Assembly: GCA_030053915.1 (NCBI GenBank)
Contig: JASGCT010000005.1
Coordinates: 1-64,000, forward strand
From: Alphaproteobacteria bacterium
GTDB lineage: Bacteria > Bacteroidota > Bacteroidia > Chitinophagales > Chitinophagaceae
DNA length: 64,000 nucleotides
Direction: 5' to 3'
The notes beneath the pieces were generated by a model. That model was not told the origin of the DNA. It saw only the letters and a program-made list of their open reading frames with translations, and ran no database searches. The number at the start of each line of letters is the position of its first letter. The stretch's first letter is position 1. The position numbers and the translations under genes were made by a program. Of the stretch, positions 37,550-39,808 are shown piece after piece.

Positions 37550-37574
37550 TTTTATATATTTTTTTAGGTAATAG

Positions 37575-37582
37575 CAAAGGTA
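37575..37582 (-). promoter_or_regulatory. -7 box of clpC
   Basis: Minus-strand TACCTTTG, 25 nt before the clpC ATG at 37549. Perfect TAnnTTTG match. Confidence 0.6.
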
Positions 37583-37758
37583 ATATTTATTTAAATACTA
37601 ACGTAATTTTAAATGATTTATTTTTTTTAACCATTAATTCTTGAATAGAATTTGTTAATAGAATCTTATAAAATATTATAAATTTAGTTAAATTTAAAAA
37701 AATTATAAAGAAAATAAAAGAAAATCTGTATCTTGTCAAAAATTTAAAATTATTATTT

Positions 37759-38685
37759 ATGTTAAAAATTGGTCTTTTGTTTGGTCAGGAGCGTAGTTTT
37801 CCTGAGGCTTTAATTGAAAAAATTAATGGGTTGGGATTACCTAATATTACTGCGGAAAAAGTTCATATTGATGCAGTAGTTCAGGGTAAAGCCACGCCTT
37901 ATGCTGTTATTTTAGATCGGATAAGTCAGGATGTGCCATTTTACCGAGCCTATCTTAAAAATGCTTCTTTAACGGGCACTTATGTTGTAAACAACCCATT
38001 TTGGTGGAGTGCCGATGAAAAGTTCTTCAATAATTGTTTAGCCACTAAAATTGGGGTACCGGTGCCCAATACAGTGATATTACCATCGCATCAAATGCCA
38101 GCGGGAACTACCGACAAGAGTTTTAGTAATTTAGCCTATCCATTAGATTGGGAAGGTATCTTTGAATATATTGGTTTTCCGGCTTATATGAAGCCTCATA
38201 GTGGTGGTGGCTGGAAAAATGTGTATTGTTTAAAATCGAAAGAAGAATTTTTTGAAAAATATGCTGAAACAAACGAATTAGTGATGCTTTTGCAAGAGGA
38301 AATTAAATTTACGTCTTATTTTAGGTGTTATTGTGTGGGTGGGCATGAGGTTAGAATTATGCCTTATGAACCTCGTAACCCGCACCATTTACGTTATGTA
38401 GCCGATTTTAAACCAAGTAAAACTTTATTGAAAACGATGAAAGATATCGTACTAAAAATTAATCATGAATTGGGTTACGATTTAAATACTGTTGAATTAG
38501 CAGTACGCGATGGTATTCCTTATGCCATCGATTTTTGTAATCCTGCACCAGATGCCGATTTAAAAAGTGTGGGTGAAGACAATTTTAAATGGATTGTTGA
38601 TGTGATGTCGAAGTTTTTAGTTGACAAAGCCAAAGCCTTTGTTCCCAATCAGCCTAATATTAAATGGGGTAATTTCATAAAATAG
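37759..38685 (+). CDS. ATP-grasp superfamily ligase, uncharacterised
   Basis: 308-aa cytosolic protein without signal peptide or membrane helix. An N-terminal pre-ATP-grasp-like region (MLKIGLLFGQERSFP) leads to a Lys/Gly loop (YMKPHSGGGWKNVY), a mid-domain VMLLQEEIKF, and the C-terminal metal-binding pattern AIDFCNPAPDAD. The fold joins a carboxylate to an amine via acyl-phosphate; the substrate is unknown. The next gene, 4 nt away, is a GCS2-type carboxylate-amine ligase, so the two probably act in one pathway. A degenerate TATCTTGT at 37729-37736 could be the -7 box. I do not recognise a named family member. Confidence 0.75.
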   Translation: MLKIGLLFGQERSFPEALIEKINGLGLPNITAEKVHIDAVVQGKATPYAVILDRISQDVPFYRAYLKNASLTGTYVVNNPFWWSADEKFFNNCLATKIGVPVPNTVILPSHQMPAGTTDKSFSNLAYPLDWEGIFEYIGFPAYMKPHSGGGWKNVYCLKSKEEFFEKYAETNELVMLLQEEIKFTSYFRCYCVGGHEVRIMPYEPRNPHHLRYVADFKPSKTLLKTMKDIVLKINHELGYDLNTVELAVRDGIPYAIDFCNPAPDADLKSVGEDNFKWIVDVMSKFLVDKAKAFVPNQPNIKWGNFIK

Positions 38686-38689
38686 GAAT

Positions 38690-39808
38690 ATGGTTATACA
38701 TAATAATAGTAAAAATATTTTTACTCTTGGTATTGAAGAAGAATATATGATAGTAGATCCCATTTCTCGGGAGTTAAAAAGTCATCAGCAAAAAATTGTT
38801 CAAGAAGGTCAAAAATTATTAAAGGATAAAGTAAAAGCTGAGATGCATCAGGCAGTTGTAGAAGTTGGAACCGATATTTGTAAAGATATTAATGAAGCTT
38901 TTACAGATATTTCGAATTTAAGGGGTATTATATTTGAAATCTCCAAATCGTTGGGCTTTGGTGTTGGCGCTTCTGGGACGCACCCTTTTAGTCATTGGGA
39001 GAGCCAGCTCATTACAAACCACGAGCGTTATAATCAAATTGTCAATGAATTACAGGAAGCGGCAAGAAGTAATTTAATTTTTGGTTTACATGTGCATGTT
39101 GGGATGCCAGACAAAAAATTAGCGGTTCATATTGCCAATACGGCACGTTATTTTTTACCTCATATTTATGCTTTAAGTACCAATTCGCCTTTTTGGGAGT
39201 CAAGAAACACAGGCTATAAATCGTTTAGAACCAAAATTTTTGATAAATTTCCAAGAACGGGTATTCCAGATTATTTTGAAAGTTACGATGCTTACGAAAC
39301 ATATATAAATTTATTAATAAAAACCAATTGTATAGACAATGCAAAAAAAATTTGGTGGGATTTACGCGTGCACCCATTTTTTGATACCTTGGAATTTAGA
39401 ATTTGTGATGTTCCTATGACAATTCAAGAAACAATATGTATTGCAGCGTTGTTTCAGGCTATTTGTGTAAAATTATATAAATTAAGAAGCAAAAATTTGA
39501 ATTTCAATATGTATCAGCGCACAGTGATTAATGAAAACAAATGGCGGGCAAGTAGATATGGTATTGAAGGTAAACTCATAGATTTTGGGAAAGAGACTGA
39601 GGTTAATACGAAAGAACTGCTCTTAGAACTTTTAGATTTTGTTGACGATGTTTTAGACGATTTAGATAGTAGGTCATCGGCTGAGTATATGAAAACGATA
39701 CTACAAAATGGAACTGGTGCAGATAGGCAATTAGCGGTATATCATTCTAAAAACAATTTTTTAGATGTCATTGATTATGTTCAAGGAGAATTTATAAAAG
39801 CGTATTAA
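38690..39808 (+). CDS. Carboxylate-amine ligase, glutamate-cysteine ligase family 2 (YbdK-like)
   Basis: 372-aa GCS2-fold enzyme. N-terminal FTLGIEEEYMIVDP is the family signature for ATP/Mg2+ binding. AEMHQAVVEVGTDIC, HVHVGMPD and the WWDLRVHPFFDTLEFRICD segment follow the YbdK pattern. E. coli YbdK has weak glutamate-cysteine ligase activity in vitro, but the true role of most members is unknown. Translationally close (4 nt) to the ATP-grasp gene, the pair looks like a two-step amide or peptide synthesis module. It is convergent with the DUF5683 gene. Confidence 0.88.
   Translation: MVIHNNSKNIFTLGIEEEYMIVDPISRELKSHQQKIVQEGQKLLKDKVKAEMHQAVVEVGTDICKDINEAFTDISNLRGIIFEISKSLGFGVGASGTHPFSHWESQLITNHERYNQIVNELQEAARSNLIFGLHVHVGMPDKKLAVHIANTARYFLPHIYALSTNSPFWESRNTGYKSFRTKIFDKFPRTGIPDYFESYDAYETYINLLIKTNCIDNAKKIWWDLRVHPFFDTLEFRICDVPMTIQETICIAALFQAICVKLYKLRSKNLNFNMYQRTVINENKWRASRYGIEGKLIDFGKETEVNTKELLLELLDFVDDVLDDLDSRSSAEYMKTILQNGTGADRQLAVYHSKNNFLDVIDYVQGEFIKAY

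Follow-up and report, generated by a model that had tools for sequence, protein, structure and literature searches.

According to PMC2588565, enzymes of the GCS2 type convert a carboxylate, in most cases that at the gamma position of glutamate, into an acyl-phosphate and then into an amide with an amine. ATP-grasp enzymes and ligases of the glutathione-synthetase fold apply this chemistry to other acids and amines, examples given in PMC12568646 being YgiC (peptide-polyamine) and Cp1B (epoxysuccinate-amino acid). The gene pair described here lies in a 64,000-nucleotide stretch of DNA from contig JASGCT010000005.1 (the window) and encodes an ATP-grasp protein, termed AG, and a GCS2-type ligase, termed GCS2. 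The original prediction had seen in them two amide-bond ligase genes separated by 4 nt, and both indeed are complete open reading frames on one strand with this spacing:

37759-38685, plus strand: AG, putative ATP-grasp ligase of 308 aa with ATG start; RimK/LysX/Ddl-like fold, unnamed family
38690-39808, plus strand: GCS2, putative carboxylate-amine ligase of the PRK13515/YbdK family, 372 aa with ATG start

The pair probably provides two steps of a conserved multi-ligase pathway, shared by many Bacteroidota, that makes and remodels a small gamma-glutamyl-type peptide or a peptide-amine conjugate; the nearest named matches suggest a Chitinophagaceae-like genome as the carrier here. The co-occurrence analysis across Bacteroidota called for by the original prediction covered 395 genomes, which were searched for AG, GCS2 and two further proteins, a ligase termed C3 and a hydrolase termed C4. 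AG matched in 137 genomes. After removal of three weak matches (G053, G250, G355; E 7e-5 to 6e-4) and seven divergent homologues (32-43% identity), 127 remained, namely the window's own genome and 126 others at 52-73% identity, so AG is not a chance open reading frame; in G272 it is split in two and carries a stop. GCS2 was found in 129 genomes, all of which were kept, twelve of them with distant matches (32-38% identity). C3 was found in 114 genomes (115 matched, and a 25-residue match in G047 was dropped) and C4 in 86 (E 1e-20 or better). AG and GCS2 occur together in 114 genomes, AG without GCS2 in 13, GCS2 without AG in 15 and neither in 253. The corresponding numbers (both, first only, second only, neither) are 110, 17, 4 and 264 for AG and C3, 109, 20, 5 and 261 for GCS2 and C3, 84, 43, 2 and 266 for AG and C4, and 69, 45, 17 and 264 for C3 and C4. 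Eleven of the 15 genomes with GCS2 only are distant matches, and the other four (G144, G154, G220, G318) have C3.

Loss of these genes inside families looks concerted. Among the matches listed for family f5, nine genomes have none of the four genes, six carry the full set and G154 is without AG only. In the window's own family, G017 is without all four, and G007 has just a divergent AG homologue and no GCS2, C3 or C4. This pattern speaks for a genuine link between the genes. AG and GCS2 are not adjacent in 44 of the 114 genomes with both, as might be expected if they were unrelated housekeeping ligases brought together by chance of gene order. However, co-occurrence holds even where the two genes are apart, and their loss is concerted with that of C3 and C4, which makes a chance pairing highly unlikely.

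The order of the genes points in the same direction. AG and GCS2 are adjacent on the same strand in 70 of the 114 genomes with both, AG always being first; the neighbourhood in relatives, on which the original prediction depended, is thus borne out. Linkage on the same strand and within set distances was also seen for GCS2 and C3 (61/109 genomes), AG and C3 (60/110), C4 and C3 (47/69) and AG and C4 (51/84). For a closer view, the 80 best out of at least 583 confirmed matches, a selection biased to near relatives, were taken as named loci, 79 of which were used (the AG reading frame of L143 was not picked). GCS2 follows AG immediately in 60 of these 79 loci and is at most the second gene after it in 70; of the other nine, six end less than 1 kb downstream of AG, and L144, L150 and L166 have C4-C3 right behind AG. 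A divergent gene for an esterase, EstB, is located just upstream in 68/79 loci, and another esterase gene, estA, lies upstream in 17/79. C4 and C3 are each found inside 23/79. The fullest cassette, as in L165 and L167, reads EstB (divergent) / EstA-AG-GCS2-C4-C3. Three loci labelled Opitutia or Didemnitutus, which we take to be Verrucomicrobiota, contain the order GCS2-M29 peptidase-C3, in L132 and L137 straight after EstA-AG; with a G+C content of 62-68%, close to that of their own AG genes, they look native rather than contaminating. As a separate observation, a Uma2-family (PF05685) gene lies between AG and GCS2 in some loci, e.g. L103:2139-2753 and L112:8965-9609; it belongs to a nine-member cluster, two members of which were Pfam-tested. 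The implied isolation of the pair was not upheld, as the conserved unit is bigger and includes C4, esterases and either C3 or the ligase C8.

C8 (451 aa) was found in 16 of the 17 AG genomes without C3, and in 16/16 it starts no more than about 350 nt downstream of AG. It was seen in none of 40 tested AG genomes with C3 (of 110 such genomes) and in none of 23 genomes without AG. Of the 127 AG genomes, 126 have C3 (110 genomes) or C8 (16 genomes), and with it a ligase resembling glutathione synthetase or GspS. As C8 fills the AG genomes devoid of C3, AG appears to need one partner of the glutathione-synthetase/GspS type, either C3 or C8. GCS2 accompanies C3 (109/114) more often than C8 (8/16). 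By sequence, C8 is similar to 3n6x, a putative glutathionylspermidine synthase, at E 3.1e-8 and matches Pfam CP_ATPgrasp_2 with 24.5 bits, under the cut-off of 32; the relation between C8 and C3 (probability 2.2) is too weak to claim.

C3 (about 395 aa) is poorly visible at the sequence level. Two copies scanned gave no Pfam match at E 0.1, and the best and only match of its profile to the PDB was E. coli YgiC at E 0.12. An assignment as glutathione synthetase GshB was rejected, since the L042 copy reached 12.9 bits (E 0.041) against the 299 bits demanded by the NCBIfam model glut_syn. No direct sequence relation was seen between AG and C3. The C3 structure model, built from the Aquiflexum lacus copy, had a predicted local distance difference test score (pLDDT) of 89.4. 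The model aligned with YgiC (7uk8) at Z 25.4 (root-mean-square deviation 3.8, 342 aligned residues), with homoglutathione synthetase (3kal) at Z 24.7 (3.8, 369 aligned), with YjfC at Z 24.4, human glutathione synthetase at Z 24.2 and GspS at Z 23.8. This fold group continues down to Z 18.8, followed by rows at 12.7 and 7.6. On the evidence of the model, C3 is predicted to be a ligase of the glutathione-synthetase/GspS fold over its whole length. It resembles YgiC, YjfC and GspS in its full-length fold, whereas identity in the structural alignments is only 12-14% and the ligase is combined here with GCS2 and AG. Cp1B of E-64 synthesis (9cjn; C3 Z 22.8) is likewise a glutathione-synthetase-fold ligase that serves to produce a small pseudopeptide outside non-ribosomal peptide synthesis; in contrast, that system is fungal, and the partners described for Cp1B, an oxygenase plus an amide bond synthetase, include neither GCS2 nor AG. 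In one locus (L089:5637-8240) a sodium:solute symporter domain (PF00474) is fused ahead of C3 in a single open reading frame of 867 aa, and the C3 open frames of G272 (535 aa) and G390 (591 aa), from the same family as L089, are also long. When the symporter was sought beside C3 by tblastn, the fusion of L089 was recovered together with stretches of loose similarity in L150, L056 and L125, but most C3 genes had no such neighbour.

GspS is a synthetase that is paired with an amidase. By analogy, GCS2 and AG might build a gamma-glutamyl peptide to which C3 or C8 links a polyamine, with C4 as the matching amidase. The top Z score of C3 belongs to YgiC, C8 matches a putative glutathionylspermidine synthase, and C4 and C3 are neighbours in 47/69 genomes, mirroring the pairing of synthetase and amidase in GspS. 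YgiC is reportedly a peptide-spermidine ligase, a finding of a 2023 paper described in PMC12568646. On the other hand, the Z scores of YgiC and glutathione synthetase differ by about 1 or less and are thus tied, and YgiC is said in PMC12506659 to be without GspS activity. The similarity to GspS has two sides: C8 matches a putative GspS in sequence and a cysteine hydrolase often adjoins the ligase, whereas the hydrolase is here a separate protein of the class-I glutamine amidotransferase (GATase) kind. Overall, we consider a polyamine conjugate a possible but rather unlikely product.

The hydrolases of the gene set are easier to classify. C4 (about 275 aa) scores 34.6 bits against a cut-off of 22.8 for PF00117, and its residues C90, H193 and E195, which we take to be the catalytic triad, are invariant in 10/10 sequences. 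C4 is thus a predicted class-I glutamine-amidotransferase-like hydrolase, and in two genomes (L075, L172) it comes after an M42 peptidase. Both esterases, EstA and EstB, belong to the PF00756 type of serine hydrolases. EstB of L098:6997-7812 (minus strand) and its relatives also contain a nearly invariant motif DxNxNGxIDxxD, which is similar to an EF-hand or dockerin calcium loop. In the vicinity of C3, an M29 peptidase gene is found in six of 50 C3 loci (L047, L048, L057, L132, L137, L143) and an Amidohydro_3 gene in nine of 50 (L032, L037, L079, L081, L084, L093, L135, L148, L155; four by Pfam and the rest by similarity, L037 and L135 apparently being one contig). The earlier remark that no glutathione-synthetase signature or peptidase stands alongside the pair is therefore true of the window and untrue of its relatives. 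A role in anti-phage defence was dismissed, as no PADLOC model matched AG, GCS2, C3 or C4 at E 0.01, and phage families likewise gave no matches.

GCS2 itself can be placed with confidence on sequence grounds as a putative carboxylate-amine ligase of the PRK13515/YbdK type: it scores 191.4 bits with PF04107 (cut-off 21) and 521.1 bits with NCBIfam PRK13515.1 (cut-off 371). It is homologous to E. coli YbdK (1r8g; E 1.2e-47) over residues 10-316 of 372, yet in contrast to YbdK it falls into another NCBIfam equivalog (PRK13515) and sits in a ligase cassette. A canonical glutamate-cysteine ligase was ruled out by the scores with TIGR02048 (51.2 vs 249 bits) and TIGR01436 (17.6 vs 463 bits).

AG remained below all curated thresholds. 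It gave no Pfam match over the cut-off, and its top NCBIfam match was rimK_fam (TIGR00768) with 28.2 bits. This value excludes a RimK family alpha-L-glutamate ligase, for which 143.4 bits are demanded. A D-Ala-D-Ala ligase (Ddl) was ruled out by the top NCBIfam Ddl model PRK14572 (11 vs 489 bits), GshB by the lack of any NCBIfam glutathione synthase match at E 1, and membership in the R2K ATP-grasp clade by Pfam R2K_2 (15.5 vs 26.2 bits) and R2K_3 (13.1 vs 26.3 bits). Judged by curated cut-offs, the claim that the pair contains no standard enzyme of glutathione or D-Ala-D-Ala synthesis stands. AG also gave Pfam and PDB matches below threshold to a coronavirus ORF7a family, which were attributed to chance.

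The AlphaFold2 model of AG (mean pLDDT 83.9) has an ATP-grasp fold. In the comparison with known structures by VIA-align, Z scores ranged from 10.7 to 13.4 over residues ~81-299 among the 50 rows listed, the highest values being 13.4 for D-Ala-D-Ala ligases, 11.3 for RimK and 11.1 for LysX/ArgX. As these families lie within about 2 Z units of each other, the fold alone gives AG no name; the structure comparison recommended earlier thus revealed the ATP-grasp fold and did not settle the choice between RimK and D-Ala ligases. K145, the GGGW motif at 149-152, E246, D258 and N261 are invariant in 23/23 near relatives and in 19/19 more diverse ones. K145 is presumably the catalytic lysine, and E246, D258 and N261 presumably form the metal site. 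The modelled fold together with this lysine and the predicted C-terminal acid/Asn metal site places AG in the ATP-grasp superfamily. Like RimK, LysX and ArgX, it combines this fold with an ATP-grasp lysine and a glycine-rich loop; unlike them, it lies far under the RimK cut-off and shows D-x-x-N at the metal site instead of the classical E-x-N. A shifted variant of the metal-site motif has been reported for another ATP-grasp clade in PMC4431377. The seven divergent AG homologues (L063-L069; 31-43% identity) have lost the GGGW motif and show no GCS2 in the stretch examined; they are possibly re-purposed paralogues. Lys/Ala-rich C-terminal tails were observed on the AG proteins of L041:7457-8635 and L043:7791-8864, both of which are long, L052:7168-8193 and L056:7148-8128.

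The structural proximity of AG to RimK, LysX and ArgX, which act on proteins, among others, could suggest that it attaches a protein tag or modifies a ribosomal peptide of the graspetide type; graspetide ligases are ATP-grasp enzymes too, and PsnB and AMdnB are among the fold matches of AG. However, a comparison of 114 small open reading frames (15-95 aa) from 60 gaps upstream of AG, the only places covered by the search for precursor peptides, revealed matches between pairs of loci only. In this respect the cassette differs from graspetide systems, as no conserved precursor gene was seen in these upstream gaps. Moreover, esterases, aminopeptidases and a glutathione-synthetase-fold ligase suit a small molecule better. 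A protein or peptide tag, which had been listed among the conceivable products, thus finds no broadly conserved small reading frame upstream of AG, and such a product is very unlikely.

In the window's own genome the pathway is present yet scattered, AG and GCS2 being the only two members that have stayed side by side. The genome has one GCS2 and, on other contigs, two copies of C3, one of which is located at a contig edge; the two copies (L072:63-1259 and L073:6158-7354, on separate contigs) differ from each other. A single intact C4 is encoded on another contig, where a gene for an M42 peptidase ends 3 nt ahead of it, and an EstB homologue (56% identity) likewise lies outside the window's contig. 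The genome also encodes BshC of bacillithiol synthesis, as do 40/40 AG genomes tested and 37/40 genomes without AG, the latter chosen to be without GCS2 too. Replacement of bacillithiol by the pathway was ruled out by the presence of BshC in all 40 AG genomes tested.

This distribution bears on the idea that the cassette produces a second low-molecular-weight thiol. GCS2 would then make gamma-glutamyl-cysteine, C3 would complete a glutathione analogue and AG would extend or modify it. The profile of GCS2 extends to plant glutamate-cysteine ligases (E 3e-5) and the modelled fold of C3 is that of eukaryotic glutathione synthetase, so that, as in glutathione synthesis, an enzyme of the glutamate-cysteine-ligase type is joined by a glutathione-synthetase-fold ligase. 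In contrast to glutathione synthesis, GCS2 is of the PRK13515/YbdK kind and stays under the cyanobacterial and plant glutamate-cysteine ligase cut-offs, C3 has no above-cut-off sequence match to glutathione synthetase, and the set comprises a third ligase, AG, which the thiol idea leaves unexplained, as well as a GATase-like hydrolase and esterases. With BshC already present in nearly all tested genomes of both groups, no thiol is evidently missing; the compound could be a thiol, but nothing requires it to be one. All in all, we regard this explanation as doubtful. The same holds for its extension to the hydrolases, in which C4 would be a gamma-glutamyl peptidase and the esterases S-acyl hydrolases, an assignment we likewise find improbable: C4 matches gamma-glutamyl peptidase 1 at chance level (E 0.57), and EstB resembles, among others, S-formylglutathione hydrolases (E 1.5e-6), but its top matches are other esterases.

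The most plausible interpretation of three co-occurring ligases accompanied by amide, peptide and ester hydrolases is that they synthesize and turn over a single small peptide-like compound. In such a pathway, GCS2 would couple an amine to glutamate through its gamma-carboxylate, or to a similar acid, and AG would add another amide bond via an acyl-phosphate in the manner of ATP-grasp ligases. C3, or in other lineages C8, may attach the final residue or an amine cap; AG with its C3 or C8 partner is the constant core. The cysteine hydrolase C4, M29 and M42 aminopeptidases, amidohydrolases and serine esterases might trim or recycle the compound. Its final bond may be to an amino acid, a polyamine or another group.

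Several observations weigh against this pathway. GCS2 is dispensable to the gene set, as 13 of the 127 AG genomes are without a match, four of them, of the same order, keeping C3 and C4; for this reason a gamma-glutamyl product is uncertain. C4 is absent from 43 of the 127 AG genomes. G154 (L173) retains GCS2, C4 and C3 in order with no AG match in the genome, and G381 (220 contigs, listed as complete) is the sole AG genome without C3 or C8. The GCS2 matches of the eight C8 genomes are only 38-46% identical and unlinked, and the EstA-like protein of the window's own genome shares just 33% identity and is possibly a paralogue. Some neighbours may be unrelated, since the esterase and aminopeptidase families are both broad. 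The Fisher probabilities, 2.6e-66 for AG and GCS2 and down to 2e-73, ignore shared ancestry. Finally, substrate and product are predictions from the gene set, folds and families.

Upstream of AG lies one additional feature:

37550-37758, no strand: AT-rich intergenic region 5' of AG; its sole small open reading frame (15-95 aa) is antisense

No precursor peptide was seen among small open reading frames of 15-95 aa in this region, which presumably contains the promoter of the AG-GCS2 pair. A divergent gene for a Clp ATPase is located upstream, and genes for DUF5683, ParB, ParA and a GH3-family protein follow downstream in convergent orientation; they look unrelated to the pair. The GH3-family gene (PF03321; 42240-43766, minus strand) is 2.4 kb from the pair, past DUF5683, ParB and ParA. 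In plants, GH3 is an amino-acid conjugating amide synthetase.

The enzyme kinds involved are already known; their combination and product were not encountered in the literature searched. In the open-access literature, none of the titles and abstract openings listed by the searches gave a pointer to the cassette; part of the gene context may already be in print in the work of Iyer et al. 2009 on amidoligases (PMID 20023723). The original proposal of an undescribed peptide or amide metabolite is supported in outline and extended by the co-occurring gene set, although not as the product of an isolated pair. Tentatively, and with somewhat less than even confidence, we suggest that AG, GCS2 and a swappable glutathione-synthetase-fold ligase act as three consecutive ATP-dependent ligases of an undescribed system, widespread in the Bacteroidota, for a new compound resembling glutathione or trypanothione, which would coexist with bacillithiol and be served by dedicated hydrolases and esterases. 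Roughly one in three Bacteroidota genomes sampled (127/395) carries AG, yet AG and C3 stay under Pfam and NCBIfam cut-offs. The gene set, the mutually exclusive C3 and C8 variants and the named carriers, among them the cultured Aquiflexum lacus, Pedobacter nototheniae, Hydrotalea sandarakina and Niabella pedocola, turn an anonymous gene pair into a testable pathway. Should the compound turn out to be a peptide or thiol made in abundance, views of the small-molecule chemistry of this common bacterial phylum would have to change.

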